Source: Pohlia nutans (lineage: Eukaryota > Streptophyta > Bryopsida > Bryales > Mniaceae). Taken from it: a stretch of DNA of 64,000 nucleotides. Made by a program: the position numbers and the translations under genes. Of this stretch, positions 7,601-59,279 are shown one piece after another; position 1 is the stretch's first letter; the number at the start of each line of letters is the position of its first letter. The notes beneath the pieces were generated by a model. That model had not been told where the DNA came from, made no database searches, and saw only the letters and a list, made by a program, of their open reading frames with translations. Location of the stretch: the NCBI GenBank assembly GCA_022496805.1, contig CM040096.1, positions 11,223,501 through 11,287,500 on the forward strand, written 5' to 3'.

Positions 7601-8657
7601 AATTTCATCCACATTTCATCCAGGTTGGATGAAATTTACCACAGTATTTTGAAAAAAAATTACTAGTAAAGCCTCTCGTAAATAATGTGGGCCACAGTAT
7701 ATGGTAATTTTAGTGTAATGAGTGCCATATATATAGAACTCCGGTACTACAACTGGCGTGAATAAAGAGCCCGTTCGTCTGTAAGAGTGATGTTGGTAGG
7801 CCCTGTGGCCTAGACAGACTCTTCTTTGGAGTACTGCCACCTTTCGGTGGTGGGACTCTATAAATTACAATCTACCTACTGTAAGTTATATAAATGCAAT
7901 ATACTAGTCCTAAATATAATAAATGAATACAATTATGTCATTTTTTACCTGGTAATGATATAGGTTAGTGTAAAAGATATTTATAACAACTTAGGGTTTG
8001 GATGCTTGTTTTTTAAATATTTTAGTTGGGGATATTTGTACACCTATATGTGGATATTTAGAAATGTTGTTTCGTGAGTTCAAGTTCGATTTCTTTGGTT
8101 GTTACTACTGCTAGTAACTTACTATTGGTAACTTTAGTAACTTACTACTGGTAGCAGATAGATATGAACTCCGGTCCTCTTTCGAGGCCGGCGTGAATAA
8201 AGTGTCTGTTCATCTTGACATTGAGCCAGTGCCCACCGGACAAAGGGCCATTGGTACAAGACTACTCACCTCTTTCGAGAATAGACACTTTAGTGACCAG
8301 AGATAAATACTAGTAACACTAGTAAAATGCATTAGTTAGAACTAGCGCGGGTATAAATTGGTGTTTGTTTTGCTGGTGGTCTCCAAATCATGGTTCCAAG
8401 GTTAGTTGGAGAAGGACATTTATGTTACAATTGTACGGTCAGGGTTCGATTCCCGTTGGGTCCGTCTGAGCGTTTATTGTGATATACGTGGCTTGGTGCT
8501 GCTAGTGAATTAATCATAGGCAGGAAAGTTTGTACCAACCAACCGGCCCCGTCCCATCTACCTGAGACAAGTGTGTACTTTGAGCTAAACAGAAAATACA
8601 AAGGAAATAAGTAGTGGTCTTCACCATTACCCTCCTTTTCTTTGAGTTTTGTTTTAT
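7601..8657. other. Non-coding spacer, possibly retrotransposon 3' tail
   Basis: No gene is visible. Two related segments begin AACTCCGG at 7738 and 8167 and both contain GGCGTGAATAAAG, so they are diverged direct repeats about 430 bp apart. The second can fold through TAAAGTGTCTGTTC and GAATAGACACTTTA. A perfect pol III B-box-like GGTTCGATTCC lies at 8449-8459, but no matching acceptor stem or A box is convincing. The 3' untranslated end of the minus-strand retrotransposon probably falls in this region; no poly(A) tail was found. Confidence 0.4.
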
Positions 8658-11027
8658 TCAATAATCTATTGGTAATGATTGGTTATTTTCTATTTTTCTT
8701 TTATGCAGAATAATTGATCCGGCATGATGTATAGCAATGGTATTTATTTCTTTGAATGTGTGTTTAATGGCGGTTTCTGGTAGCTTAAATTTTGTTTCAA
8801 GGAGTTTCATCGAGGGAACATGTGTTGTGCCTCTAGCTCCTGCCGTGATGACTATGAGAGCTTCAACTTTCCATCCTAAATTAATAATGTTGTTGATAAG
8901 TGGTTGGTATTTCTGATTTTTGATATCTATTGTTTCTTGTGGGAATCTGTCATTACAATATGTAAATTCAATAAATTGAATTGTGAGGTTGTCTGATGGA
9001 TGTGATGGTGGGTCATTTTTGTATGGGAGTCCCTTTACGCAAAGGATGACTGGTTTGAATCTAGCGTTGCAATGACATCTTTGTTGTTCACATGAACATG
9101 GTAGTAGCCATGGGGGTACTGTGTTTTCTTGGGGGTTGTTGTTGAATGTTCCTGCGTTCATGAGGGTGTAGCATCTAGATTTTTGTGATGAAAGGATTAA
9201 TTTCCTTAGTTCCCATACTGCTTTATTATGTCTTTTGACTCTAATGGCATGTATATGGTGATGGTTGCATTTTAGAAGTACGTGTAGCCATGTGTCTGCA
9301 TCTGCAGAGTTACAGATGGAACATGTGATTGAGGGGAATCTTTCTCTACCAAAGAATAGTTGTTTTCTAGCATTACCCATGTATTGGCCAATACGAAGTT
9401 TTAAAATAATTGTTTTTTGTGACTCTGTGATTGTAGGATTGGACCAAAATGCATTGGATAGTTCATTATCGATGTTTGGGTTCATAGTCCATTTGCTAAT
9501 GTTAGGAAATTGGGTTGTCATTATTTCAAGGTTATTTTCTTGGTCGTATTTGGTTAAATATGTTTGGAGACATCTAACAGGGCCTTTGTCTGGTCGTTTT
9601 ATAGGTCCTGGCCATAGATCCTTTTGAAAATAGAATGGTGTTGTATGTGCAAATTCATATGATCTTGTGGCTCTAAAGTACTCTTTTCTGGCTCCCATTT
9701 TTGCAAGTTTATCCGCTTGTTCGTTGCCTTCAATGTTAATATGTGCTTTGACTTTGTAGAATGTGGTGGGTTGAGTACAAGTTTTTAGCATTTCTACCAT
9801 GTCTGTTAGTATGGTTTTATCCACATGATTGTTGTGCATGGTTGGGTGTTTAATATGTGTGTTTAGATTGTATAGGCAGTTGAGGCAATCTGTAAATATA
9901 TGTGCCGGTTCGTCTGGGTATTTAGTAGTGATTAAACTAAGTGTTTTATGGATAGCCATTAGTTCTGCTCGAAAACTTGTTTGTAGGCCTGGTAGTCTTT
10001 CTGATATTTGCATGTCATCCTTTGTAGAGTTGTATATTCCGTACCCCGGCTTTTTCTTTTTTCCAGTGTCCGTCGGGGGCTTGTTCAGGAGGTATGAAGG
10101 ATCCATCGGTATAGTAGCTATGTTGCGGTTGGAATTTAGGTGTAATGTTTGTCACAAAGTTTGGTAGAGGTGGTGTGTTTAAAGTGGTCGGGTTGATGGA
10201 GGGCGGGTATATGAGTTTGTGCCATTTTTTATTTTTATTGACTGGTGTGTTGTGGGGGGTGCACGGGGCATTTTGTATGTGATATTGTGGAATTTGTAGG
10301 TTTTCAATTTCTGCTTTAATTGTATTTATTTGGTATGGTGTACCAATGTTGTGATCTTGGTGATGAATGCATAGGACGCGGATTGCAAGTGGTTCTGTCT
10401 TTGGTTTATGGAGTTCTTGTGGGATTGTTGGTTCTTCATATGTGATGGAATCTGCGGCAAAGTGGGCAATTATATGGGTGTCTGGAAATGGCCCCATGTG
10501 TGGGGAGAAGTTTTGGTACCAATTTGTATTTGGTGTTACTAGTTTAGTGACGTTATTTGGGTCGGTTTTGGCTGCCAAACGTGCCCAGTGAATTGCTTGT
10601 TGGGTTGTTTCTTCATTATGTGGGTGGGCGTAGCCTATGCCTTTCCATTTGTATTGGAAGGCGGTACCGAGTGATCCAAAGACTTTATCTCTTGCAAAGG
10701 GAGAGTAAAATTCTGAAATTTGTGTGGAACATGTTATTGGTGAGGAGAAGTATGAGTGGGAGATGTTAAAGGTGGTTGTAATGGAGTCAAGAATACTTGT
10801 TGGTAGGGTATGTTGTGCTGCTTTTAGTGGGTCTTTTCTGGGGATTTTATGGTTGTATCTTTGATAGAGCCATATTACTTCTTTTTCAAATGATTGTGTT
10901 TGCGGTACTAGGCCGTGTGAGCTATAAATTGCTTTATTATATTGTTGCCATAGCCATTTTAGTCTAGTGGTTGGTATAGTGATAAGGTGTCTACCGGTAT
11001 CTTCATATAGGTGGGTTTGTTCATTAT
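8658..11027 (-). pseudogene. Retrotransposon ORF2, 3' part: RNase H, CCHC motif, restriction-like endonuclease domain
   Basis: The open frame 11027-10015 runs into the frame ending at 8658 through a one-base insertion near 10041, where a run of four G (minus strand) replaces three. RNase H residues are all visible: TDGS (about 10125), AEL (about 9965), FTDC (about 9893) and NEQADKLA (about 9700). Next comes C-x2-C-x9-H-x4-C (about 9262-9318) followed by a TH..RI.RHN-like stretch, which in R2-class elements precedes the restriction-like endonuclease. The C-terminal part has FIEFTYC and KNQKYQPL followed by GARG, the spacing of a PD-(D/E)XK fold with E in place of D. The RNase H call is firm; the endonuclease call is inference from motif order. 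Confidence 0.7.
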
Positions 11028-13718
11028 TTATTTGTATGGTATCGTAGTTGGAAATAATGTCTTTCTCCGGGTTACATTCTTGTATGTGTATGTGTGTAAG
11101 TGGGGTAGATGTGGGTGGGGGGATGAATCTTGCATCTTTGCTTTGTTCAGGGATGAAGTGTGTGTTAATAATTTTTTATAGTGTCTGTGTTGTAGTTTTG
11201 TGTAATATTCTGTTAGTAGTTTAATGTTATGTGCAATGACTGTTGGGTGGTTGAAGGGGAAGAGTTCTCTTTGTGGCATCCATTTGTTGTATGTATCGTT
11301 GTTTTGGAGAGTCCATTGACATAAGTATGTGTTATATTTTTTTGTTATTTTATATTTATCTTTTGAGGTATTTGTTTTGTGGTCTAATATTATGTCGATG
11401 GGAAATCTTAGAGGGTTGTTTTTGATGTTAGGGGGTGGGTTTGGGTGGAGGTGTTGTTGTGGGGCTGGGAGTTGAGGTGGGTTATCTGGTGCTCTTGGTA
11501 ATAGGTTTTGGTTGTCTGAGATGTATCTCGCTTTAAGCGTTCGAGCGGGTGGATGTCTTGCACATGGGTTTGAGCAATTTGGTGTACAGCTTGGGTAGCA
11601 AAACAGTTGTTCAGCTATTTGAAGTGCGCTTTTTTCTAGTTTGGTTGGCGTTTTGTAGTATGTTTTGAAGTTTTCTGGTGTCATAAGGGTTGTTCCGTTG
11701 GGGAGGGTGATGTGTTTTATTTTGTATATGTTATGGATTAATAATTTGTGTAAAAGTTTGAGTGATAGTTCGGGGTTGAGATGTGGAAGTTCGTTTGTAG
11801 ATTGTGTTCGCCATTCTCGTTCCAATTCTGTCATATGTAGTTGAAAATTTTCATTTGTACTTTTGATGTGAATTCCTCCAGCTTTTTTTAAGAGAAATAA
11901 TGTACGTATGGTTGGTGATCTAATGCAATCATGTTGTATTATTCTTGGGATTTCTTCCGCGCCTCCATATTTAGCTAATATGTGGTGTATGAGTCCTTTA
12001 TATATTATACCTAGTCTCCCTTGGTCATTAAGAGCATTCCTGAGTTGTTCACCAATGCAACGTAAGTATGCGTTTTTTAAGGAGAATGCTTCGAGTCCAA
12101 ATAGTTCATGTGGTAGTTGGGATATTACATTTGCTGTGCATTTTGGTAATCCACATATTATTTTTTGGATTCCTATGATTTTTTTATCAAGTTTTTTGAT
12201 GGCTGGTAAAGAGTATGGTACTGCATAGAAGCTGTATGCAATGCCTGCTCTAATGACGGTGTCAACCATGCTAATTTTTTGTTTGATTGTGGCTGGGCAT
12301 TTTGTTAGTTGTTTGCATTGGTCTACTACTTTGTTTGTGGTGATGTGTGTTTGGAGTTTCCATTTAAGTGAGGGTACTAGTTGAATGCCTAAGTATACGT
12401 AGGGTTCGTTTTGATGTAAAACAGGTATTGGTTGGTTTCTGTAAGATATGTTCTGGTTTTGAATTTGGGTTTTAAAAGTTTCAGGTTTAGTTTTGGACTT
12501 ATTGGGACATCCTGTAATGGCGCATTTTTGTACTCCTAAGTCCATTCCTGCCCATTCACAATATTTGTCTAGTTTTTCTAGTTGGATTTGCAACGATTGA
12601 AGGTTATTTGAAATAGCTGCTAGGTCGTCTGCATGTGCTGCAGAGCTAATGGTCAGTTTGGATGTACCAAATGTGTATCCATTTTTCCCTCTTTGTAACC
12701 AGCGCAGTAATGGTTCTAAAAATATGAGAAATAAATATGGGCTTAATGTGTCTCCTTGGATGGTGCCTCTTTGTATCGGTATTGGTTTTGTTTTTCCAAA
12801 GTGTTCGCCAGTAAATATAGTGGTGGATTGTGAGTATATATTTCCAACTAAAGTTACCGCATCTACAGGATATCCAAGGTCTTTCATTATGGCAAGGAGT
12901 CTTGCATGATCGAGGGAGCCGAATGCATTTTTTAAATCTATGTATAGTAAGTATATGTTTTGGTTTGTAAATCTTGCGTCTTCTAGAGCTGCTATAAGTA
13001 GTTGGAGTTGTCTAGATGTGCTTCTTTCTGCTCTGAATCCTTCTTTGCTATCGTGAAGTATTTGGTGTTTTTCACCATATGTTGAGAGTATTAATGTTAG
13101 AGTACTAGTGAATAGTTTGTAAATTGTGTTTGCTAATGCAATTGGTCTATGGTTGGGTAATTGTGAGGGGTTGCCTTTTTTGTATAGCAATATAGTTAGA
13201 CTAATTTTCCATGAAGCTGGTATTTGTTTTTGTTTGTAGCAGTGAGTGAAGAATAGAAATAGTAGTCTATGAAAGCTTTCAGGCATGTTTTTTAATATTG
13301 CATTTGGGATTTTGTCTGGGCCAGGTGTTTTGTTATTGGCTAAGTGTTTTAGGCATATGTCGTATGTTTCGTGGTCTAGGTATTCGTGTAATGGGGTTTG
13401 TGGATTACCTCTTTTATCTATAACAAATCCATCTAGATCATGCCATGGGTATTGTCTAACTCCACAAGTACATTGTGGTGGGTGCTCAGGTTGGAAGTAA
13501 CATGTTGGGACTGTGGGTCTGTTGCTAATTGATTGTTGTATGTGGATTTCATTTGCTATGTCTTCTGGGCTAGTTAGTATGTTATTATTTCTGTCCATAA
13601 TACAGTCTAATGGTGGTACTTCTTGATTTTTGAAGACTTTTTTATTCACTTTCTTTGGGCTTTTTTCATATAGTTGTCTATATTTTGATATGGCTTTCTT
13701 GATACAATCTTGATACAA
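11028..13718 (-). pseudogene. Retrotransposon ORF2, middle part: reverse transcriptase and chromodomain-like segment
   Basis: An 896-codon frame. RT motifs in order: NNKTPGPDKIPN (about residue 128), HRPIALANTIYK (190), GFRAERSTSRQL (227), YIDLKNAFGSLDH (259), IQGDTLSPYLF (320) and AHADDLAA (361), the catalytic box with His where Tyr or Phe is usual. Residues about 773-840 (11199-11402) resemble a chromodomain: IILDHK, then TYLCQW, then NKWMPQREL and a helix LLTEYY. The frame is entered through an 11-bp tandem duplication at 13708-13730 that shifts phase, and is left through a one-base loss in an A run near 11175. Residues after about 850 in this frame are shadow sequence. Confidence 0.85.
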
Positions 13719-13779
13719 TCTTGGGTGTATTTTGTAGTGATTTTACGGGCTTGTATGTTTGCGGTTTTGGCCAATTCTG

Positions 13780-15027
13780 CTAATGTTTTGATCCATTCTT
13801 GTTGGTTTTGTTCTTGGTTCGGAGGTGGGGAATGGTGATATGGGTATGGGTTTTTATTTCTTCTATTATTGGGTGTGATTGCCAGTTTGGTGTGTTTTTT
13901 GTTATGTAAATTACTTTTCTGAGTAGGTGGTAAGTGGCTAGGTGTTTTTTCCATTTTTTTTGGAGTTTTCTTGGTAAGAAGCCTCCTTGTAAAGAGGTGC
14001 GATTTGTTAATGATGGGAGGGGTGGTGCACTACAGGTTTCTTGGATCTTGTCTAATATTTTTTGTATCATATGATCTAATTTTGTACAAGATGTTTGCCA
14101 CTGGATGTCTGTTAGTTGGTCATTCATTAGTATTGTGGTGAGATCATTTATTTGAAGAGCATTTTCTTCAAAAAATTCTGTTTTAAATTTTTCAATATTC
14201 TCTGCTGAGATGGGGTTTAAAATTCTTGGTAGTTTCTTTGTTGTTATTGGTGTGGGCCGTGCTAATAGTGTATTTGGTGGTATATGCAGTGTGACTGGTG
14301 AGTGGTCTGAGTTTAGATTATGGTCATTGTCGGTGGTTGATGTGTATAGAGCATTATTTGGTGATTTGATGTAGTATCCATCAATTAAACTTGTTTGGTT
14401 ATAGTTTAGGCCGCCTTGTCTAGTGTATAGACTATTTGTTGGGATGTATGATAATTGAAGGTTGTCTGTGAATGTACGCCACTCTATGTCTTCTGTCTGG
14501 GGCGGGGTTGTGTTAAATTCATTTTGTCGTCCTATTAGGGCAATGTCTCTATTAAAGTCCCCGCATAATATATATGTGTGGTTTGAATGTATTGTAATTT
14601 GTTGTGTTATGTTTTGTTGAATTATTGGTATACAATGAGTGTCTTCTATGTGTGAAGGCATGTACATGTGTATAATTAACCACGGTTGTAGGGGTTCGTT
14701 ATTGATTTTTATTATTTGTAAGTATGGTGATATTTCTGTTGGGGTAGGGATTTTAGTAATGTTACCTGGGTACGCATATTTTTTATTTACAAGTGTTAGG
14801 AGTCCGCCTCTTGCAGGAGTGTATGGCCTTCTTTGTTGCATACATCTTGTTAGTGCGTGTGTGTTATTAAATATTAGTTTGTATTTAGGAAATAAATTTT
14901 GTATATATTTAGTGGATTTTGTTGCGGTTAATTTAGTTTCTTGTATTGTGATTATTGCGGGGTTATTTGGTGTGTTAGAGATTAGGTTTTGAAGGCTTGG
15001 GAGTGTTGTGTTTAAGGATGAGGCATT
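13780..15027 (-). pseudogene. Retrotransposon ORF2: APE-type endonuclease
   Basis: The frame continues directly from the 2A region after a single TAG at 15028-15030. It begins NASSLNTTLPSLQNLI, then IITIQETKL (catalytic Glu), a Gly-rich GLLTLVNKKY region, YILCGDFNRDIAL, and ends the fold with SDHSPVTLHIP, the conserved SDH motif. These are the hallmarks of AP-endonuclease-like domains of LINEs, which nick target DNA. The TAG lies where WNxxSL is common, so a TGG-to-TAG nonsense change is likely. The frame shifts near 13850 and then continues toward the RT. Confidence 0.85.
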
Positions 15028-16630
15028 CTAAGTAATAATGTGTGTGCTGTGGTTTGTTGTTTGTATCTCTTGGTTTTGGCGTATGGGTATGTCGGGTAGT
15101 GGAGGGGGGTGAGAGTATTCGTGTAATGGTTCGTTACCTTTTAATGTTTCTTTGAGTAGTTCTACTGGTAAGTATGGGAATTTATTGATCATTATTTGGA
15201 GATTTAATGGTTCATTATGTTGTTCGATGAATTTGTAAATTTCTTTGTGAATGGTATTCGGTGGTTTGATTATGTTTTGGTGTAAGTTTGTAAATTGTAT
15301 ATATGGGTGTGGTGTAGCGATGTGTCTTTCAGGTGGGTTTTGTAGTGTAGACATTCTTTGTAAAAGTATTGTTGTCCAATCAGGGTCTGGTATTTGTATT
15401 AACATATTATCGCATGTTTCTAGTGAAGGATTGATTGTGGTAATGAGTGCGTATAGTATTTGAGGTGGTGGGTGGTCTTGTTTTTGAGAGATGTATCGAG
15501 AGAGGTGTGGGTAGTTTATGGTTGTTTCTTGATGGTTTGGGTGTGTATTCTGTATTACAGGTGAAAATTGTTTTGTTAGGTGTTGATATTCTGGTTGAAG
15601 TTTAATTGTGCAGGGTATAAAGTATGTTTTACAGCGTCTTTTGTGTGTAGATGGGTGTGTTGCGAGTATGTCTGGCATAGGTCCTGGATTAGTTTCGATA
15701 TCTCCACATAATAAGAGAAGGTATAGTAGGACTGGGTTTTTTATAAGCATTTTATGTTTGTGTGAATGGTGGTTTTTATATATAGTCTTTAAGCGTATCG
15801 GTTTATTGTTTTGTTTGGTAAAGTTATCTTTATTTTTATAAGAAGTGTACAAAATAAGAGTTTTTTTGGTTTTAAAGGTTGTTATGTGTATTTGTAGGAG
15901 AGACATTCTTTGTAAAAGTATTGTCGTCCAATCAAGGTCTGGTATTTGAATTAGCACATGGTCACATGTTTCTAATGATGGGCTAATTGTGGTAATGAGT
16001 GCGTATAGTATTCTAGGTGGCGGGTGGTCTTGATTTTGGGAGATGTATCCGGAGAGGTGTGGGTAGCCTGTAGTTGTTTCTTGGTGGTTAGGGTGCGTTA
16101 TTTTTAACATGGGTGAAAATTGTCTTGCTAGATGTTGGTGTTCTGGTTGAAGTTTAATTGTGCATGGTATGAAGTATATTTTGCAGCGTCTTTTGTGTGT
16201 AGATGGGTGTGTTGCGAGTATGTCTGGCATGGGTCCTGAGTTAGTTTCAATGTCACCACATAATAGAAGTAAGTGTAGTGGGACCGGTTTGTTTTTAAGT
16301 ATTTTGTGTTTGTGAGAGCGGTAGTATTTGTTAAACATAGTTTGTAGGTTTAGTGGTACATTGTTTTGTTTTATAAAGTTGTCTATGTTTTTGTAAATAT
16401 TGTTCAAAGTATGTGTTTTTGTGGATTTGAGTTTTGTTATGGTTTTTGGGTGTTGTTTGTATGTGTTGTATGTTTTTTGTTGTATTTTTGCTTTTATGTT
16501 AGAATTTTGTGTATTTTTTTGCTGTTGCTTAAAGTATTTTGTTATTAGTATGTTTATGGTTTTGTTTATTGGGTAGAGTAGGAGGGATTTATTTTTTCGG
16601 TGTGCTAATTCTTTTTTATAATTATAATAA
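15028..16630 (-). pseudogene. Retrotransposon ORF2 N-terminus with two 2A-like peptides
   Basis: The frame is open from about 16630; the first in-frame ATG is near 16340 (MFNKYYRSHKHK). Two in-frame repeats follow, each with a Leu-rich run and a 2A-like box: LLLLCGDIETNSGP (about 16230) and LLLLCGDIETNPGP (about 15680). The second fits the D-x-E-x-NPGP consensus that makes ribosomes release the chain before the final Pro. The first has Ser in place of the first Pro and should be inactive. The residues after each box (MPDILATHPSTHKRRCK) are nearly identical. The tail reaches the APE domain in the same frame after one TAG at 15028-15030. Confidence 0.85.
15351..16440 (-). repeat. 552-bp in-frame tandem duplication in ORF2
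   Basis: The segments beginning ACATTCTTTGTAAAAGTATTG at 15351 and 15903 are repeats with a period of 552 bp, exactly 184 codons. Each unit holds one 2A-like box. Scattered substitutions between units indicate that the duplication is not very recent. Confidence 0.8.
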
Positions 16631-17172
16631 TAATAGTATTTTTATTTTTATTTTTTTTTGGCGAGGCCGGGAGGCCGAGCCCGTTTTAGGTTTATTTGGT
16701 TAGTAGGGCTTGAGTAATGGTTTAAGTATTGTGTTTTTTTTGGTTATGTGGTGTTTTTTGGAGGTGTTTAGTGGGAATTTTTGTGGTGATGGGTTGTTTG
16801 AGTATAATTGTTGGTCTTTATAATTTATAGTGGGTTTGTATGTGTATAAGTATTTGTTTTTTTGTTTTGGGTTTTTTATATTTATATTTGGGTGTTTTTT
16901 TGTAGGATTCTGGGATTTTTTTATTGTATTAAGAAATACTATAGGTAGGTTATATTTTTGTTTATTAGTAGTTTGTAGGATATTCAATTTTTTAATTTTT
17001 ATAATTATTATGTTTTTGGGTTTTTTGCTAAGATATATTGTTGTATCTATAGATACTGTATATATATTTTCTGGTTTTATATTTTTCTTCTTTTTATTGT
17101 TTTTTATTGTTTTAGTATATATATATACTTGTCGGGTTGGGGGTGTTTTTGCCGGCGCGTTGTTTGTCCAAG
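16631..17172. other. A/C-rich spacer between retrotransposon ORF1 and ORF2
   Basis: On the minus strand this is rich in A and C, with short A runs and AT repeats (around 17050-17130). It holds no convincing reading frame. The composition matches ORF2 rather than ORF1. Confidence 0.5.
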
Positions 17173-20100
17173 CTAGTTTGACATGTCCATGTTGCCTTCG
17201 ATAGATGTGCCTGCTCTTGTCATGTCAAGAGCTTGCATGGTTGTGGCAAGTTGCCTTTTAAGAAGTGTCATTTGTGTGTTGAGGGTTGATGTTGATTTCT
17301 CAGCTGCCCTTTCGGCAATTTGTTGTTGCTCACTGCGAAGATCTCTTTTCATAGTGGTAATTTCTTCTCTAATTCCGACTATCTCTTTCATAAGATCTTT
17401 TTGAGGATTCTCTTTTGAGGGGATGTTTCCTAGTGCTTCTATGGTATTTGCAAGGGCAGTGTTTACATCACTAAACCCTAGTCTAGTGAGTTCTGCTGCA
17501 CTAGGTGCATTTGCTCCATCAAGGCTCCTAGGGTGTGGAGTAAATTCTACATGTTTGCCTAGAAGTTTTGCAGATTTCTTGACAAATGTCTTGTACACCG
17601 TTGCGTTGAGGCATTGGATGTTGCAAGATCCAAGATGTTTGCCATTATTGTCATCACGTTTGAAGAAAAAGTTGACTGCATTCTTCGGTCCCATATGTGC
17701 TTCGATGCTCTTCTCAATCTCTTCTACACTCTTCACTTTGTTGAGATTCTTGGCAATTAGAATGAGGGCATTCTTCTTTGCGATGTCATCCACCGATACG
17801 CGTGCTCGGTCTGCTAGCTTTCCATCTAGTATCTCGTGGTTATAGGTGATCTTGTGCTCCTTCATCTTCTGGGCTTGTTCTGGTGAGGATGCTACTACCC
17901 AAGCAAAGAGGTTTTCTTTCTTCTTTTGAATGTTAGTTATCTCATACTCAATCCCTCTTTTAAAACTTTCTATTACGATTTTTTCGTACAACTCATACCA
18001 CTCCTTAAATTCTAGCTCTTCACTTGTGATTTTGACAGATAACAAGTTGTTAAGAGCAAGAGCATCATAGGTCTTACAAATCTTCCCTCTTTTTAGTTTG
18101 TTATCATCAAGCTTGAGGATGAAAGGGCGTAGCCCTTGGAGAAGTCCAATACCATCAAATTGGGGGGTTTTCAAGTGTAACTTGATCACTCCGCTCCAAT
18201 TGGTGGTCTTGTGATAGCACATGAGAGCAACGGGCTCTCCAATTACATCCCCAAGCTCAATGTCCATTTCTTTGAGCCTTAGCAAAACTAGGTCCATGAT
18301 TGTTTCTTTAGCCCATTCTTTCTCCCCCATTTCAAAATGAATAGCTATTTGGTAGTCTAGTGAAAAGCCATACTTGTCAACCTCAACATCCAAAGGGATC
18401 TGTGTGAGGTTGAAATGTTGTCCTTCCTTCCCATCCTCTCTAGAGTTGGGCCATTCTTCCTGGATGACGAAGGGAAAGGACGAAGTGGTGTGTTGACACT
18501 CATTAGCTTCCTTCTCACTCATGCCATTTTTAACAAGCACCGCTACCGGTTCGTGACTATCTATAGGCAAGCCTTTACCCCTATTAGTCCAATTCATGGC
18601 TTGGAAGCCAAGCCAAAAGGGAGGACGTTTCAAATCATCAATTGATTTGCCCTTAGCCTTCTTTTGGCTTGACGTTCCTTGTGAGACACTTGACGAGCGT
18701 TTTTGAGTAACAAACATTTCTACATCGGGATTGTTTTCTAGGGCTAGGAGTTTCTCTTTGTATCTTTGAGAGGAGGAGGAGCTTGTATACTTCTGAGACA
18801 TTGTGAAACCATACAAAAATTGTGTTAAAATTTGTTCAATTTTTTGGAGTAAGAGGTTTCTTCTTATGACCTCAAGATCTGCCCCTCCCCACAACTTAAT
18901 TTGTGGGGCCGCACGGGATGTGACCTTTGAGAAGAAGGTATTGGTTTGACTTGATATATTCACATTCCAAGCATTGTTGATATAGTGATTACAAAGGTAA
19001 ATGGTGTAATATTTGCACATCGTAAAGCTACTCAAATACTTATCTCTATTAACATCCAGACACGAGTTAAGCCAATTATAATTATTCAAAGACAGCCAGC
19101 AATTGTTAAGCCAATTGTTATCATTCAAAATGGGCCAGTAAGCAGCAAAATTATTGAGAGTTCCATACAAATACATTTGCTGGTGAATTTTAGCACTATC
19201 AGGCATGCATTCGTAAGTGTAATGCATATAAAGCTTGGTATACTTCCCAATACTGTCATGCAAATTAGCGAGCATGCACATCTTAATATTAACGCCGTAG
19301 CCATCAACATTATCAGGATTGAGATGTAAACTATTCATCAATACAGACAGGTAATTAATTCCGATGTTACAACCAGGATTCATTTTCCAATCTAACATCA
19401 CGCAGTCACTGTTCATACACACCAGGGCTGGACCGCCTTTCATGATGGTTGGAACATAGTCGTAAAGGCTTGCAAAATAAGCCTTAGAGAGTTTGAATTT
19501 CATGTCTAATAAATTGGAACTAATAGTAAGAGCAACAAAAGTACCTTGTTTGCTGGGATGACTCTTGCTGAGACAGTTCCTTGAGCGGTCCCGTTGCTCC
19601 TCGTCTCCTACAGCGGCTTCACTTTCGCTCTTTTGCTGTAGCGGGGGTCTTCTTCCAAGCGCGTCTGCTTCAGTGAGGCTCGCAGTTGTCCCCTTCGTGC
19701 TATTAAATTCTTCTGCGTCCGTCGTTTTCTGCTTCTCAGGGCTCTGTTGATGGTGGTATTCTACTGTGACAGAAGTTTGCAAGCCAGGAGGGCGCTGCTC
19801 TGATAACATGAGAGCTTTGGGACAAGGGGGCAGATGTATGGACAAAAAGCAAGCTACCGGTCTAGGGTTAAGGGGGTCTCCCGGCAGAGGGTAGACATAA
19901 TAGGGAGATACAACAATGAGCTTCAGTTCTACTTGGAGCATGTGAGAGTGAGAATTTTGCAGAGCAGGAAGAGATGAGGAGTGAAAGAACTTGGGAGGCT
20001 TATATGCTGGATAATGGTGTTGGGGGTCGACGATAATTGGCGTTGTTGAAAACGCCGTTTCCACCAAGATTAGCTGAGGTGCGCTGTTGACGTTTCGGGT

Positions 20101-21798
20101 AAGTCTTGGGTTGGTTCTTGTGTCAGATGGGTGCTTGGCGTGGTTTGTTGTTGTCATCCTGGTGTTTTTTGTGGCAAGATGAGTCATGCTTTTACAAAAG
20201 CCATTATGGATTTGTCGTTTAGGGTCAGGCTTGATTTGGTAATCAGTGTCTTTGGTGTGACGTGCCTGTAATCCCAGTGGTTGGCTTGGTAGGTGAAAGG
20301 TTTTTCTGGAGGTTGGCGGGCTCCTGGTTGTTCTTGATGCGAGGGTATCGACTATCTTTGGGTGTACAATTACACCGTGTGAAGGAATCCTACAGGTGTG
20401 TACTGTTGTTTGGGTCGAGAGGCAACGGCTAGGATATGGTGGCCGCTTCCTATTCCGGGGTCGAGCTTGGTGGTATGGACTCCGTCTCCTGGGCATCTGG
20501 AGTTGCTTACGTCTTGTTAGGGTAGGTTGTTGTCGTTTTCTTCTAAATCGTTGTTGACGTTCCTTCACGTGCTGCTTCTTGGCTCTGCAAACTGAGTTGG
20601 TCTGCCGGTTTTGTTGCGACCCTCCTACCCGCGAATTGCCGTTGATAGTACCTTTGCGTGTTGACATAGCTAGGGTGGGCAGATGGTACCTTTGCGTGTT
20701 GACTTTACTATTGGTGTTGTTCTTCGCATTGTTGTTGCTCCAGGGAGTGGCCTTTCTTCTTCTTCTTCTTGTCCATCTCCCTTCTAATTTGTGCATTTTG
20801 TACTCCACAGCATCATGGTCCTTTTCTCTACAACGCGCTCTCCTTTTGCCGAACATGGTTGCCTCTCGGTCCTTGCTCCATTGGCTTGATTGCTGTGGCT
20901 GATTTTTAGCAGCAGCGCATTTTTTTGCTTCGATCAACTGCTTCAGATGGTTGTGCTGGCGGTGTTGGTTTGGTCTGCTATGCTTTGGGTAAGCGCAGAA
21001 TATGCGAACGATTTGAAATCGGCCGCTGTTAATATTCCTCCATGCTGGCATTTTTGAAATTGGCGTTGGCTTACCTGTTTCATGCATGTGCAACCAGATA
21101 CAAGTGATGGTTAGAAAGAATCTGATGGAGGGGGCTGTCTTGTTTACCTGATTGTAGGCACTGTGCTGGTGCAGGGCTAGCTTGTTGCAGTTGTACCGAC
21201 GAGCATCGAAGGCACATTGTTGCTCACTCCTTACGGTGCTGTGGCGGATTGGTACTGCGATGGGGCGGTGTGAGCTGGAGGTGCAGTCAGTGTTGTTGCT
21301 GCTGTGCTTAATGCGTGGGGCAGTTCTCCTATGTTGTAGCAATGAGATTCGATTGTGAGGCTTGGTTAGATTGTACCCTATGCAGTTGACCGCATACTGT
21401 GTTTTCAGTTGAGTCGTGTAATCTGCTTTGGATCTGGAGGCATAGCAACATGACGAGGAAGACGACAGATCTAGATCTAGATCTAAGGCGCAAGTAGTAA
21501 GAGTTGTTAGATCTGTCACGGCAGTTCTAAAGCAAAGGATGTAATGCAAAATTGGAAAAAGAAGGTAAAGAAGGGCAAGCCTGTGTGGTGTTTTCGGTCT
21601 TGTCAATGACATTGAAAATATTCCTTGAATACGGTGTGGAGAGAGAGAGTTCTTGCGATGTTGGCTTTGTGGTGCGCAATGTAAATTGTGCATTGTGGAC
21701 TGGCTACAGATCATGGAGGTAGCCCAGCCTACCTCTCGGCACAAGTGACCTTTCAGATCTAGTGTGGTACCAACATTACAACATGAGGGCAGATCCAA
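17173..21798 (-). CDS. Retrotransposon ORF1-like protein, 1541 codons open
   Basis: One uninterrupted frame. The best protein-like part starts at MSQKYTSSSSSQRYKEK (about 18800) and runs to 17173. It includes a globular region (FWLGFQAMNWTNRGKGLP), then ALILIAKNL-helix-NFFFKRDDNNGKHLG (17530-17800), which has the strand-helix-strand pattern of an RRM as in many LINE ORF1 proteins, and a C-terminal coiled coil (MKRDLRSEQQQIAERAAEK). About 1000 codons upstream are also open, low in recognisable motifs and rich in Ser, Thr, Arg and Pro; they may be true N-terminus or open by chance. The protein would bind element RNA. It could instead be an unrelated gene beside the retrotransposon. Confidence 0.55.
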   Translation of the reverse strand: MDLPSCCNVGTTLDLKGHLCREVGWATSMICSQSTMHNLHCAPQSQHRKNSLSPHRIQGIFSMSLTRPKTPHRLALLYLLFPILHYILCFRTAVTDLTTLTTCALDLDLDLSSSSSCCYASRSKADYTTQLKTQYAVNCIGYNLTKPHNRISLLQHRRTAPRIKHSSNNTDCTSSSHRPIAVPIRHSTVRSEQQCAFDARRYNCNKLALHQHSAYNQVNKTAPSIRFFLTITCIWLHMHETGKPTPISKMPAWRNINSGRFQIVRIFCAYPKHSRPNQHRQHNHLKQLIEAKKCAAAKNQPQQSSQWSKDREATMFGKRRARCREKDHDAVEYKMHKLEGRWTRRRRRKATPWSNNNAKNNTNSKVNTQRYHLPTLAMSTRKGTINGNSRVGGSQQNRQTNSVCRAKKQHVKERQQRFRRKRQQPTLTRRKQLQMPRRRSPYHQARPRNRKRPPYPSRCLSTQTTVHTCRIPSHGVIVHPKIVDTLASRTTRSPPTSRKTFHLPSQPLGLQARHTKDTDYQIKPDPKRQIHNGFCKSMTHLATKNTRMTTTNHAKHPSDTRTNPRLTRNVNSAPQLILVETAFSTTPIIVDPQHHYPAYKPPKFFHSSSLPALQNSHSHMLQVELKLIVVSPYYVYPLPGDPLNPRPVACFLSIHLPPCPKALMLSEQRPPGLQTSVTVEYHHQQSPEKQKTTDAEEFNSTKGTTASLTEADALGRRPPLQQKSESEAAVGDEEQRDRSRNCLSKSHPSKQGTFVALTISSNLLDMKFKLSKAYFASLYDYVPTIMKGGPALVCMNSDCVMLDWKMNPGCNIGINYLSVLMNSLHLNPDNVDGYGVNIKMCMLANLHDSIGKYTKLYMHYTYECMPDSAKIHQQMYLYGTLNNFAAYWPILNDNNWLNNCWLSLNNYNWLNSCLDVNRDKYLSSFTMCKYYTIYLCNHYINNAWNVNISSQTNTFFSKVTSRAAPQIKLWGGADLEVIRRNLLLQKIEQILTQFLYGFTMSQKYTSSSSSQRYKEKLLALENNPDVEMFVTQKRSSSVSQGTSSQKKAKGKSIDDLKRPPFWLGFQAMNWTNRGKGLPIDSHEPVAVLVKNGMSEKEANECQHTTSSFPFVIQEEWPNSREDGKEGQHFNLTQIPLDVEVDKYGFSLDYQIAIHFEMGEKEWAKETIMDLVLLRLKEMDIELGDVIGEPVALMCYHKTTNWSGVIKLHLKTPQFDGIGLLQGLRPFILKLDDNKLKRGKICKTYDALALNNLLSVKITSEELEFKEWYELYEKIVIESFKRGIEYEITNIQKKKENLFAWVVASSPEQAQKMKEHKITYNHEILDGKLADRARVSVDDIAKKNALILIAKNLNKVKSVEEIEKSIEAHMGPKNAVNFFFKRDDNNGKHLGSCNIQCLNATVYKTFVKKSAKLLGKHVEFTPHPRSLDGANAPSAAELTRLGFSDVNTALANTIEALGNIPSKENPQKDLMKEIVGIREEITTMKRDLRSEQQQIAERAAEKSTSTLNTQMTLLKRQLATTMQALDMTRAGTSIEGNMDMSN

Positions 21799-24060
21799 CT
21801 ATTTTGCGCCTCTTTTGACCTGATCTTGTGTCCTTTCTCCTTAGTTCCTACAGCAGCCCAGCCTGCTTGTCTGCGTTAGCCCTCTTGCACAATCTCCACT
21901 GAATCCCTACGCAGCTACCATCGCAAGCAGCAAGGCTACCATCTTTCCCTCAAACTCTCCACACCGCATGTTGCGGACCTCAGCAAGCCATTCCCCGTGC
22001 TCCCCTACTGGTAGCACATGTTGTTCTTTTGTTCTTTCCCATTGCAAGTCATATTTTCCTCACTTCAACTTTATATAAGGTTTTTTTTAGCCCTTGTAGT
22101 TGTACCAAGGAATAAGAATTGTTGTACAAGTATCGTTGTAGCAGATTCTAGAATATTGGACATGCCACGTCATTGTTTACCTAAAGAATGATGATGGAAG
22201 GTTGGAAGTCCACACTAGCTCCCCCTCAAAGATCACATGTTTTGAATTTTTAATCTTTCATGCAGTGAGAGCAAAAGGGTGAACCTTGGTAAGGGTTAAA
22301 GAACCTTATGTAGTATCCGTTCTTATTTAGATTTTGATTCTTTTACCATTTTATTCTTTTGTTATTATTATTAGGGGTGTCATACCTCATAGCATAATCT
22401 CTAAATGTTAGAGGGGGTAAGTGTAAAACCTAGATGCGTTATAAAATCTTACTTTTGCAACTTTGATGAAGTTTGGTCCAAACGAGAAAATGAGAAGCAT
22501 GATGTTTAGTAATTATTTGTACGTTCAAAATTTTAAAAAATGTTTTAGATACTCATTTAATGAATTTAGAAGCATTTATTGTTGAATATTCACTAAAATT
22601 ACAAATTTTATTTTTAGAATTTGAAATTTGGTATGATTAGTTAAAACTAGACATCTATTACAAAATGGTTGATGGCAAAATTTTCAAAGGAAAGAACATC
22701 ATTATTTTCCTTAAATAGTATATTTTATGACACTAGGACAATGTTGAATTGTTTTGTCTTTGGAAAATTCTCCTCCGTGGAGTTTAACTCGGATTGACAT
22801 GATTCAAATTGGTCGTTTGGCCACAACTTCCGTATGGAGATTGGCCAAGATTAACTCGACGATTTTCTCCCCATGTTTACAATCATCATAGAATCAAACT
22901 TTTCAGAAGAGGTGTGATACCTTCTATTGCTAGTGTGGTCATGTGCTGCTGGCCCAAGTGTACCTCATAATTTAGTCATGCTTCTATTTTTTAATTCTTT
23001 TTCAAAACAATTTTTCCATAATTTGATTCAATTTATGGTGACGAAATTCAATTAAGAATCCATAACTTTCACACCATAGGTCCAAAAATCACAAAAAACA
23101 CCTTAGTGCACCCCTTCTTGTGAAGAGCTTTCCGACAATACCAAAAACACATCTAGTGGCCCCACAGTCTAGGAGATTTCAACATACACAACAAAACAAC
23201 ACAAACAAACAAACCAACTTGCTTTATGTATAGTTTTAAATTGTTGTGGCCAAATTTTAAGTAATCATGGTAAAACATCAAGTGGCTATAGTCAAAGACT
23301 ACGTAGTCAAAATTAAAGACAAAAATGTAAAAGCCAGAAACAAAACAACATTTTACACGTTCATTGATAATAAATAAAAGTTGTATATTTGTAACTTTAT
23401 GTTGAATTAAATCTAAAATGAAAAAAAGTATGAAGACTATGAAAACAATCGCAATTACAATTTCTTTTATTAAAAAATTAAAAAATTAAAGAGTGCAATA
23501 ATATATAAGCTAGCAATTATAAAAAATAGCATCACTGTCATGTAATACTATCAAGTGTTTTCCTTGTTTTTATTATCATTTTATATTTGACAAACTAAAA
23601 AACACTAAAAAATACAACAATAAACACCCAATTCCCTATTTTTGCACTTGGCCAAGTGCAATCATTTTAAAACCTAATTGTGCAAAAAAAAAAAAAAAAA
23701 CCACAAAAAAAAAAAAAAAAAAAAGACGAAAAAACATCGATTTCTTTCTTTGTTGAAACTTGTAGTATATTGCAATAAAAGACTAATATTTCGAATTTTT
23801 CATAACAAAAATTTGAATTTCCTTTATTTTTAAAATTGCAAGAGTGATTATTTAAAAAATAATACAAATTATGAATAGATTAAGACATTATAACACCGTT
23901 GCTAGAGTGTATGGGAGAAGGATTTATTTTATTTTATTTTATTTTTTCTTATTTCCCATTTTCTTTTTTCTTTTTTTGTGTGCCAAAAAGTACTTAAGGC
24001 GGCGTTTTTCTCCTTCCTCCATCCTTCAAAACAACATTTGAATGCCGCAGACCTTGAGCC
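21799..24060. other. AT-rich intergenic stretch, no gene seen
   Basis: Neither strand has a convincing coding region. It contains poly(A) tracts at about 23684-23723 and T-rich runs at 23930-23980. The first 300 bp may include the 5' untranslated end of the retrotransposon, but no boundary is visible. Confidence 0.5.
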
Positions 24061-24076
24061 CCTCAGCCACGCCCAA

Positions 24077-24081
24077 AAATA

Positions 24082-24106
<25 letters not shown>
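24077..24106. repeat. (AT)n microsatellite
   Basis: About fifteen AT units followed by a T run. A shorter (AT)n tract lies at 24632-24650. Confidence 0.95.
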
Positions 24107-24112
<6 letters not shown>

Positions 24113-24199
24113 CCCTTTTTCTCCGAGATTTTCAGGATTTCTGAAATTTATGGGATTTCGGGGGCTAAGGGTCCATGCGCGCGGACCCCATTCTATTTT

Positions 24200-24620
24200 C
24201 TCTATGGGAGAACACAAATATGTTCTCACATACTCCCATGGCCGCCTTATTTACTCTTAAGGCGACTATGGGAGGGTATGAGAGAACTTAATTTTGTTCT
24301 CATGAGGGTTGGAGGACAGAGGAAAGAGGGTGTGTTGCCGTGTACCCTCCACCACGCTCAATTTCTTTTAAGAAGTTTTTTTTTAATTTATTTTAATTTA
24401 ATTTAATTTAATTTTTTTATTTTACGGGTTTTCGGGAGTATACGGTCCTCGCTTGCGGACCCTCTTTCGTCCTCACCTCAAGTGACTCCTTAAGAGAACA
24501 TCTATATGTTCTTCCATTATCCCATGGTCGCCTTATATACTCTTGAGGCGGCTATGAGAGGGTATGCAAGAACATATGCATGTTTTTGCATACAAAGGCG
24601 GCTATGTATCATTAGCGACC
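24200..24620. repeat. Two diverged copies of a hairpin-forming repeat
   Basis: Segments near 24205-24300 and 24495-24600 share CCCATGG(C/T)CGCCTTAT followed by an inverted GGCG(A/G)CTATG, so each can fold. Both are followed by GAGGGTATG and an AGAAC motif. The period is about 300 bp. They look like fragments of an inverted-repeat element. Confidence 0.5.
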
Positions 24621-44607: not shown

Positions 44608-46450
44608 CAGTAGGGTACAACATGCTTACGAATTTTTGACCCCTCCCTGGTGGATATTTGGGTCCGTTGCTATGTCTTCCCTTAATTCTACAGTACTCGT
44701 TATGGCACCAATTGCCCTAAAAATTGGTAGGGACATTCCTACTCTAGTCTTATACTAGAATAAATTTTTTTGGGCCATGCTCGCAGCCCTCAGCATTTAT
44801 GCGACCGCTTGATTTAGGAACTACCTATTTTCCACATTGACAACGCCTCATCACACATGGCAGCAATGCACTTCCCACAATTTTTTCCTGCCGCTGGTCC
44901 AATTTGCGCCGTCCACCACAGTCTGATCATTTCCTTTCGTTCCAGCTACTGAGACCGATTATAACGACTCCGCTCCCATCCGGTTTCACCACTTTTTGCC
45001 TCGAACGCGCAGTTCTCTCGACTCCGTGCTTTTGTCCAATTCGGTTCCTGAATCCCTTTAGCTTGCTGTCATCCTCACATCTGAATTCTTATGCCCATCT
45101 ATCTTATCATCCAATCTGAATTCGCTTATGCACATCTCGTTCATCATTCGTCATTATTCTTCTATCTTGTCTCATTCCATTTATCATTTCCACATATCAT
45201 AATCCTTAAGTATATTCTCAAAATGCGGCAACGCACTTTGACAAACAGAGAAAGATTTTACATTGTAACAATGCGAGAGAAAGGACTGAAATGTAAAGAC
45301 ATTGCAGATGTGCTGCAAATGCCTCGCTCTACTATCTCCACTGTCCTCACAAAATATAGATTAACAGGTTGTATGCAAACTGAATCAGCAGGCCACGCGC
45401 CTCAAAAACTCACAGTTCGTGCATTGCGTGATTTAGCTCGTCTCGTTTGTGATGACCGCCAGCAAACTCTCGCAATGCTTGCTGATCGTTTCCATGTGCA
45501 TAGAAACACCATATGCACCTATATCCGTAAGCTTGGATTTTGCAATAGGATTGCCCGTCAAAAACCCTATTTGATCACAGCTCATAAAGCAAAGAGATTA
45601 GCATTTGCAAAAGAACACCGTCATTGGACTGAGAATGATTGGAAGAATGTGATCTGGACTGATGAGTCCTCCTTTGAACTTGGAAAAACGTCATGACGGA
45701 TTAGAGTGTGGCGAAAGCCACATGAGGCATATGTTTCTAAATGTTTAGCACCTACTTTCAAATTGGGTAGGTCTTCAGTAATGGTTTGGGGGGCTTTTAC
45801 CGGCTTTGACAAAAGCCCATTAGTTCTCATGCCAGAGGGTGAACGAACAGCAAACGATTTCATTCAAAATGTCTATGACGGCACTTTAAGTGCCATCTAT
45901 TTCATGCATGATCATCCTCATCATCTCACACTCATGGAAGATGGTGCGCCAGTCCACCGTAGCAAACTTGCACAACAATGGAGGATAGCTTATGGTATTC
46001 AAAAACTAGAGTGGCCTCCAAACTCGCCGGACCTCAACCCCATTGAGAACTTATGGAAATTGATCAAAGATTTGCTCCGCCACCACAACCGACCAAGAAA
46101 TAAACAAGAAATGATGCAGACTATTGAAGCAGTATGGAATGAAGTCTCCATGGAGCAATTACAAAGTCTCATTGCAAGTATGCCCAGACGAATAGAAGCA
46201 ATCATTTCAGCAAAGGGGGGAAGCACCAAATTGTAGATAGTATGTAGAAAAAGATAATAATTTTATTTTTTTTCCATATGTAAATGTACATATTTATCAT
46301 AGTTATAAAGCTTTCTCTTTTGTGATTCCAACGCAACTTTCGGTTTCCAAATTGGATCATTTTTGCACCTCCTAGAGCTCCTCAAAGTTCCTACATATTG
46401 GGCTGAAATTTCAGGGCCAAAAAAATTCGTAAGCATGTTGTACCCTACTG
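44608..46450 (+). mobile_element. Tc1/mariner transposon, full length
   Basis: Terminal inverted repeats of about 30 bp (CAGTAGGGTACAACATGCTT at the left, its complement at the right) are flanked by TA at 44606-44607 and 46451-46452. The 1843-bp element holds one transposase frame (45223-46236) with a single stop. Length, TA target and gene position fit Tc1/mariner. Confidence 0.92.
45223..46236 (+). pseudogene. Tc1-type transposase (DD34E) with one in-frame stop
   Basis: It starts MRQRTLTNRERFYIV; N-terminal helix-turn-helix regions (DIADVLQMPRSTISTVL and LADRFHVHRNTICTYIRKLG) would bind the inverted repeats. The catalytic triad is in WTDESSF, LMEDGAPVH and PNSPDLNPIENLW; 34 residues separate the second Asp and the Glu, the DD34E spacing of Tc1 elements. 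A TGA at 45694-45696 splits the frame after the first Asp; since RIRVW follows, a CGA-to-TGA change is plausible. No frameshift is present, so inactivation is probably recent. Plant mariner elements usually have DD39D. Confidence 0.92.
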
Positions 46451-56428: not shown

Positions 56429-56953
56429 TTGTGGCCGCGCATGGCTCCTCATCAATCCATGCTGACGAAATTCTTGTACGGTGGGGTGTCCGATGGCGAT
56501 GGGGGAGAATTTGAGGGCGATCGGTACCAGCATGGCGATGGGGGCAATTTTGGTACAACGCAGGTTGCGTTGAGTAGCTCGGAAGGGAACACTAGTCCGC
56601 CGCCTGTTGATGCGTCCGACGGAGTCTCCGACCTACAGCACGCGCCGGTGTTATTAGGCGCCCCCGCGGCGTCAATACTGCAGCAAGGAGATGACGCAGG
56701 AGGCGTGAGGGGAGCACCTGCGCTACCCACGCCACAACGCATCACAGCAAAGGAAAAATATAAGTCTCCATGTCCCGTTGCAATGAAGGGTGATGGAGCA
56801 AGTTCATCAGGGTCCAATGTTGCACTTCAAACTGCATCAGGTGGGGTGCAGGAGGTGGTCATCTTGGACCCTCTGGTAACCTTGCCCGCTCATGACGCAG
56901 CAAGACGACGAAGAAGAGTTTATGAGGGCAATCGACATTGGCAAGATTCATAG
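56429..56953 (+). CDS. GC-rich open frame upstream of the hAT transposase
   Basis: A 174-codon frame rich in Gly, Ser, Asp and Ala (MLTKFLYGGVSDGDGG at its start). It ends just before the transposase start and is in another phase. It may be a low-complexity N-terminal extension or exon of the transposase gene, or chance. I do not recognise it. Confidence 0.35.
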   Translation: MWPRMAPHQSMLTKFLYGGVSDGDGGEFEGDRYQHGDGGNFGTTQVALSSSEGNTSPPPVDASDGVSDLQHAPVLLGAPAASILQQGDDAGGVRGAPALPTPQRITAKEKYKSPCPVAMKGDGASSSGSNVALQTASGGVQEVVILDPLVTLPAHDAARRRRRVYEGNRHWQDS

Positions 56954-56967
56954 GCAGCAAAATTACC

Positions 56968-59141: not shown

Positions 59142-59222
59142 GTCCTTTGTTTCCATCATGACGGCAAGCTTTGAGTTACAAATTTTTTGAACACTTTACT
59201 AACTGGGTTGGGGGTGGGTGGG

Positions 59223-59279
59223 ATTGCTAATTGCGTTGGGCAAGGCCTTTTGGGCCGGGGTTCAACTCCCCTTAGCAAT
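59223..59279 (+). other. Compact tRNA-like cloverleaf
   Basis: Four perfect helices follow each other without linkers: acceptor ATTGCTAA/TTAGCAAT (8 bp), TTGC-GTTGG-GCAA, GGCC-TTTTG-GGCC, and GGGG-TTCAACT-CCCC with a normal T-loop and a B-box-like GGTTCAACTCC. At 57 nt it is too short for a standard nuclear tRNA, so a tRNA-derived SINE head or decayed tRNA is more likely. Confidence 0.45.

Follow-up and report, generated by a model that had tools for sequence, protein, structure and literature searches.

Long interspersed nuclear elements (LINEs) of the Dualen/RandI group were reportedly treated by Kojima and Fujiwara in 2005, and the Dualen element is said, from its abstract, to have a cysteine protease. 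R2 inserts at one 28S site and has no apurinic/apyrimidinic-type endonuclease (APE), and the LINEs with 2A motifs reported by Odon in 2013 are, by the title, said to be of the APE type. Dualen/RandI elements combine an APE with a restriction-like endonuclease (RLE), a reverse transcriptase (RT) and an RNase H (PMC4640811; Dualen is also cited in PMC3636483), are discussed as a step between RLE and APE LINEs (PMC4640811), carry 3′ simple repeats other than poly(A) in all 8 of the 8 RandI families listed (PMC3747384), and appear in a 2015 table with green algae as their only hosts (PMC4438587). Here we describe a 13.85-kb element from the moss Pohlia nutans that is very probably a decayed full-length copy of a LINE of this clade. 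It lies on the minus strand of the 64,000-nucleotide stretch that we analysed (contig CM040096.1 of assembly GCA_022496805.1, positions 11,223,501 to 11,287,500; hereafter the window), and all element coordinates below are window positions on that strand.

The assignment is based on the presence of APE, RT, a PCIF1-like domain, RNase H, a CCHC finger and RLE in long open frames of sister copies, on the placement of the RT, on coding constraint over the second open reading frame (ORF2), on target-site duplications mostly of 12 bp, and on an (ATCT)n tail following a hairpin. It supports the interpretation given in an initial annotation made from the sequence alone, namely that a dual-endonuclease LINE is present in a land plant. 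The moss element resembles Dualen/RandI in the joint presence of APE and RLE with RT and RNase H (PMC4640811), and it contains the domains expected for the group, APE, RNase H, and CCHC plus RLE in the same ORF2. Like RandI, it ends in a 3′ simple repeat, (ATCT)n, and not in poly(A). It differs in its host, which lies outside the green algae, and in having no cysteine protease detectable with Pfam. What appears new with respect to the known Dualen/RandI kind is the occurrence of a dual-endonuclease LINE in a moss and of a PCIF1-like domain in a LINE. The literature that we searched, which left most subscription papers outside its coverage, yielded neither; the initial annotation knew of no land-plant description of this layout with the added 2A and chromodomain-like parts, and the Dualen/RandI descriptions found do not name a PCIF1-like domain.

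A 401-base probe (window 10000-10400) was searched against the 697.8-Mb assembly of 332 contigs and gave at least 40 scored matches, including the window itself, the 39 others being 96-98% identical and distributed over 11 scaffolds; this is a lower bound, as 40 were scored among 1255 first-look candidates. Twenty copies (L009-L028) were fetched for comparison. The 12-bp sequence TGCTACCAGTAG flanks the window copy on both sides, at 22005-22016 on the 5′ side and at 8145-8156 on the 3′ side, where its first T could alternatively be the last base of the tail. This places the 5′ end at 22004 and gives a length of about 13.85 kb (8157-22004), so that the size of about 8 kb initially given has to be revised. 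The 3′ terminus of the family consists of a hairpin, GCCGGCCTCGAAAGAGGACCGG (8171-8192), followed by the (ATCT)n tail (8157-8164); the 3′ end falls at 8155/8156 in 14 of the 20 fetched copies, at 8158 in L010 and at 8152 in L013, and is not shown in the fetched sequence of L009, L014, L018 and L020. Another copy (L016/L029) begins no more than about 10 bases from the corresponding 5′ position and is flanked by a 12-bp duplication of its own. Among 17 copies inspected at both flanks, 11 have a duplication of at least 10 bp, which measures 12 bp in eight of them and 10, 11 and 14 bp in the remaining three; those of L011, L013 and L023 could also be read as 13 bp, with one base shared with the first base of the element, and that of L010 is the least sure, since the same flanks contain another 10-base match. 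The base preceding the duplication is G in 9/11, T in L026 and A in L022. One fixed target was ruled out, as the 3′ flanks differ between copies.

In the window copy, the ORF2 region (8658-16641) is interrupted by a nonsense codon (15028-15030) and roughly four frame changes, so that the Pfam matches to APE, RT and RNase H fall into separate frames, and its active sites are altered to HADD in the RT and KPV in the RLE. The sister copies preserve the order of domains in longer frames: in L027, the 2A region, APE, RT, chromodomain-like region, PCIF1-like domain and RNase H occupy a single frame of 2215 residues, while in L025 (1126 residues) and L024 (1076 residues) a single frame runs from the post-RT region via the PCIF1-like domain, RNase H and CCHC to the RLE. 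The motifs from APE to RLE named in the initial annotation were all located on the minus strand. The APE domain (14293-15036) carries QETKL (14929-14943), GDFNRD (14545-14562) and SDHSPV (14293-14310) and matches PF14529 at 1.1e-5, just below the cut-off, and PF03372 at 7.8e-4; in sister copies L022 and L027 the APE lies above a Pfam cut-off. The RT (12129-13352) matches PF00078 at 2.5e-25, and its HADD corresponds to YADD in 13 of 18 rows. RNase H (9690-10116), which contains a frame change in the window copy, matches PF00075 at 2.2e-13 and was also recovered by fold search.

A sequence search of the PDB placed the RT closest to R2 (8.9e-30), with L1 next (about 1e-18 to 1e-17) and Bombyx R2 at 5.9e-15. 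In the RT phylogeny, which had been proposed together with a structural comparison as a check on the initial reading, the moss RT and P0004 fall into a clade of 27 out of 41 rows with support of 99/99, which includes nine rows from Haematococcus lacustris; two R2 rows, human L1 and the APE-RNaseH rows P0036 and P0041-P0043 remain outside. Membership in the L1 or I clade is not indicated, as the RT lies outside both and an RLE is present. The Dualen side of this tree is represented by Haematococcus elements of Dualen layout and not by Chlamydomonas Dualen itself, the clade names of the I-like rows were assigned by domain content, and the tree program flagged long branches, including L1, P0035, P0037 and the Ephydatia-R2 join. 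Four proteins with partial RT (P0003, P0018, P0031 and P0032) were left out of the tree and are counted among the 30 clade proteins by overall alignment only.

The second endonuclease, which the initial annotation had offered as an inference, is supported by a fold match and by conserved D, E and K positions. The C-terminus gave no RLE match in sequence searches of Pfam and the PDB, but a fold search with the predicted model of the linker-CCHC-RLE part matched R2, which is the comparison that had been proposed. The CCHC finger starts at 9323 and is followed by RHN (9216-9233), and the RLE (8680-9095) contains IEFTYCND (8949-8972) and KNQKYQ (within 8904-8924); its D/E/K positions in the window copy are KPV (9048-9056), E (8967-8969) and K (8919-8921). 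Across 20 rows, which exclude two additional, more divergent rows of L018 and L025 (KPY and KPN) and L020, which ends before the motif, the first of these reads KPD in 17, KPE in two and IKF in one, and D, E and K are jointly intact in 16. Close relatives that reach these sites keep D and E in 6/6 cases and Lys in 5/5, at about 58% identity. The sponge rows that group with R2 in the tree are likewise detected by a profile built on CCHC plus RLE of the clade (P0033, 1.1e-12; P0034, 1.1e-9).

Coding constraint extends over the whole of ORF2. The pooled ratio of nonsynonymous to synonymous differences (pN/pS), calculated from gap-free copies (numbers in parentheses), is 0.14 for APE (13), 0.13 for RT (11), 0.24 for the chromodomain-like region (18), 0.33 for the PCIF1-like domain (18), 0.29 for RNase H (16), 0.19 for CCHC (20) and 0.25 for RLE (16), compared with 0.22-0.34 in the linkers and 0.14 just after the RT core. 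These values are pushed up by the neutral changes that copies gather after insertion, and since closeness to window 10000-10400 determined which copies were used, this choice may partly explain the low pS near the 3′ end. Overall, they indicate that ORF2, including both endonucleases, has been kept as coding sequence, and better support for the RLE and the PCIF1-like domain in particular comes from relatives with 40-60% identity, in which both are conserved.

Several observations weigh against this reading. Six of the 17 copies lack a duplication of at least 10 bp: L024 and L028 show only 9-base flank matches, which were left uncounted, and L012, L017, L018 and L019 show no flank match. The duplication begins with T in 11/11, a regularity that is partly methodological because the tail also ends in T. 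No protease family was found in the ORF1 and ORF2 frames with Pfam, the N-terminal part not having been fold-searched. Of the 30 clade proteins, only 17 are hit by the RLE profile, several of the others ending before this domain, and the model that holds the RLE has a mean predicted local distance difference test (pLDDT) score of 59.9 and a predicted template modelling score of 0.38, so that only its single domains are to be trusted; both structure models represent the same region of L025, built from different alignments, and are not independent. Finally, since the linkers are as constrained as the RLE and the PCIF1-like domain, the pN/pS values of these two show a translated, selected ORF and not a stronger hold on the domains themselves. 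The same comparison of 0.25 with 0.22-0.34 would favour an RLE that is a relic without function, as would KPV in the window copy and the three deviating rows (KPE twice, IKF once); such a relic is nevertheless very unlikely, given that pN/pS drops to 0.21 among pairs with pS >0.1 and that D, E and Lys persist in the close relatives. That the matches represent an assembly or contamination artefact, or algal sequence, is suggested by the algal origin of the nearest named relatives, and can be regarded as negligible in view of the 39 further matches with distinct flanks, of the duplications in 11/17 copies, and of the assembly itself. It is described as a PacBio HiFi assembly of this Antarctic moss of 698.20 Mb (PMC9247546), which also makes it unlikely that the broken frames are read errors.

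On the opposite strand, the 11 duplicated sites would read as a loose A^C target. In the scheme that we consider, translation of the mRNA would yield ORF1p as well as ORF2p, the latter with 2A separation near the N-terminus of ORF2. ORF2p would bind the 3′ hairpin and the AUCU repeats of the RNA that encodes it. Nicking of the first strand by one of the endonucleases, at a loosely defined A^C(A/T)(A/T) site, would release a 3′ A that pairs with the AUCU tail and so primes reverse transcription, and a second cut on the other strand about 12 bp away would produce the near-constant duplication. Because both APE and RLE are kept, we favour, as a possibility rather than an expectation, that they divide the two cuts between them. 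It is likewise quite possible, if short of probable, that a single endonuclease performs integration, for example the RLE, as in R2, with the APE retained for something else, for instance cutting at repair sites or the processing of RNA/DNA; the two roles could also be swapped. Duplications of nearly one length could come from a single R2-like complex, and the APE (0.14) is held tighter than the RLE (0.25), whereas the coding constraint on both domains and the joint integrity of D, E and K in 16/20 rows speak against this alternative. With a multi-copy moss family that has both endonucleases in a constrained ORF, and with measurable insertion sites, the assignment of each strand cut to one of the enzymes becomes testable.

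The PCIF1/CAPAM-like domain of methyltransferase fold (10303-11049), located between RT and RNase H in the frame 10018-11175, did not appear in the initial annotation. It matches PF12237 (PCIF1_WW) at 2.4e-11 with 44 bits against a cut-off of 31.1 (match at 10582-10926), and fold searches of predicted models matched the PCIF1 fold; a single-sequence search of the PDB reached an E-value of only 0.96. The domain shares with PCIF1/CAPAM the fold and the SPxxC and FGS segments, and differs in the replacement of NPPF, in the absence of a WW domain from Pfam scans, and in its location within a LINE polyprotein. A clade profile detects it in 24 of the 30 clade proteins and in 0/11 outside; 18 of the 24 were in the alignment from which the profile was made, and the remaining six (P0016, P0019, P0022, P0024, P0028 and P0030) score 4.5e-20 or better. 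It was also found in 49/49 further proteins with RT and RNase H, from a set of 69 taken from the best 1716 candidates by shared words; 66 of the 69 are from Haematococcus lacustris and therefore do not represent independent lineages. In the moss copies the place of NPPF is taken by HPHN (10615-10626), in five clade members by NPEY, in Haematococcus elements by NVP, and in other relatives by further variants; NPPF, the motif of the PCIF1 enzyme, occurs in none of the proteins whose motif was read.

This pattern bears on the function of the domain. We tentatively suggest that it may hold the capped 5′ end of the element’s own RNA without methylating it, favouring full-length copies. A less likely alternative, in our estimation, is that the domain, despite its altered motif (NPEY or HPHN), still methylates adenine in RNA or DNA and so marks the element RNA or the target. 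Such activity would agree with the retention of AHP in 12 of the 13 close relatives that align there, with a core identity of 0.61, equal to that of RNase H, and with the closeness of NPEY to NPPF. It is disfavoured by the absence of NPPF from the proteins read, by the use of N553 and F556 mutants of human PCIF1 as dead enzyme (PMC10544176), and by the suggestion that an F to H change could explain the absence of m6Am in Drosophila (PMC9479742). A broader proposal, which we regard as rather doubtful, combines the cap-holding and the two-cutter ideas: an ancestor of the entire Dualen/RandI clade would have captured a PCIF1-type cap methyltransferase as a part of its retrotransposition apparatus, with a new conserved site that reads or marks its own 5′ cap, the two endonucleases would share the cuts, and the lineage would survive in a land plant. 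If true, copying and cutting in the clade would follow a scheme unknown from other LINEs. A cap-methyltransferase-like domain common to the clade would connect the copying of LINEs with the RNA cap and could explain the choice of full-length RNA, and the combination found in this element makes it possible to ask how two cutters are used and why a relative of a cap enzyme is carried.

The elements of H. lacustris (P0021 and its kin) provide the nearest comparison, as they share APE, RT, the PCIF1-like domain, RNase H, CCHC and RLE with the moss element, and seven of their proteins contain a 2A motif. They differ in that many carry a Josephin-type protease (PF02099), in NVP at the NPPF place, and in a weak PHD-like match in P0019. 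P0021, with Josephin protease, APE, RT, RNase H, CCHC and RLE, fits the Dualen definition as reported. Dozens of annotated H. lacustris proteins are in fact retrotransposon ORFs of this clade, some of them fused with domains of other elements. With R2, the moss element shares the linker-CCHC-RLE fold at the C-terminus, and the R2 RT is its closest solved relative; the presence of an APE and the dispersed copies set it apart from the R2 clade.

Upstream of ORF2, the actual ORF1 (17173-18801, 542 aa) is marked by a shift in pN/pS between the window copy and L016: nine 60-codon steps upstream of Met 18801 (to 20601) give 0.49-0.95, the step holding this Met gives 0.45, and nine steps downstream give 0.04-0.30. 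No Pfam family reaches its cut-off in ORF1. The 5′ untranslated region (18802-22004) lies partly within an open frame without coding signal. That the frame 15028-16641 represents ORF1 was ruled out, since it continues into the APE in L027; with 2215 residues read through in that copy, it constitutes the N-terminal part of ORF2, severed from the APE by the nonsense codon. Of the two 2A-like motifs, the one at 16231-16272 ends in an altered NSGP, and the other, LLLLCGDIETNPGP (15679-15720), conforms to the published core (D/G/C/N)(V/I)ExNPGP (PMC12846837). A scan of the 20 copies and the window found this core in 14 of these 21 stretches, with two occurrences each in L017 and L024; several of the seven stretches without it are 5′-truncated. 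An NPGP motif in the polyprotein is a likeness to 2A-bearing APE-type LINEs, from which the moss element differs as a member of a dual-endonuclease clade. The idea that 2A replaced the Dualen protease was ruled out by the seven Haematococcus proteins, which carry both.

The chromodomain-like region (11190-11408) is a predicted fold of three strands and a C-terminal helix, with pLDDT near 80 in model 2 and poor prediction in model 1; it has no Pfam or PDB sequence match, and since the fold search of model 2 was filled with methyltransferases, it was barely tested there. Between RT and the PCIF1-like domain, the algal-type relatives P0014, P0017, P0018, P0019 and P0032 show PHD-finger matches (2.9e-4 in P0018, 9.7e-4 in P0017, weaker elsewhere), none above the Pfam cut-off, and P0020 has a precomputed PF00628 match. 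Chromatin readers may be common in the clade.

Several of the copies L009-L028 resemble the window at about 88-90% across 7.5 kb (8156-15900), yet at near 97% at the 3′ probe, and pS drops from 0.35 in the APE to 0.06-0.09 in the 3′ part. A single shared history would be expected to give even divergence despite the choice of a 3′ probe, and subfamilies may therefore have exchanged parts. Directly upstream of the element, a separate repeat at 23621-24500 is mostly 75-88% alike at about 40 other scored places. Elsewhere in the window, the plus strand contains a Tc1/mariner-type transposase split by a stop (45085-46236; HTH_Tnp_Tc3_2, 1.2e-13; DDE_3, 2.4e-13), three adjoining frames (56926-59141) that by eye resemble a broken hAT-type transposase and gave no Pfam match at 0.01, and a tRNA-Ser (gct) gene at 59196-59279.

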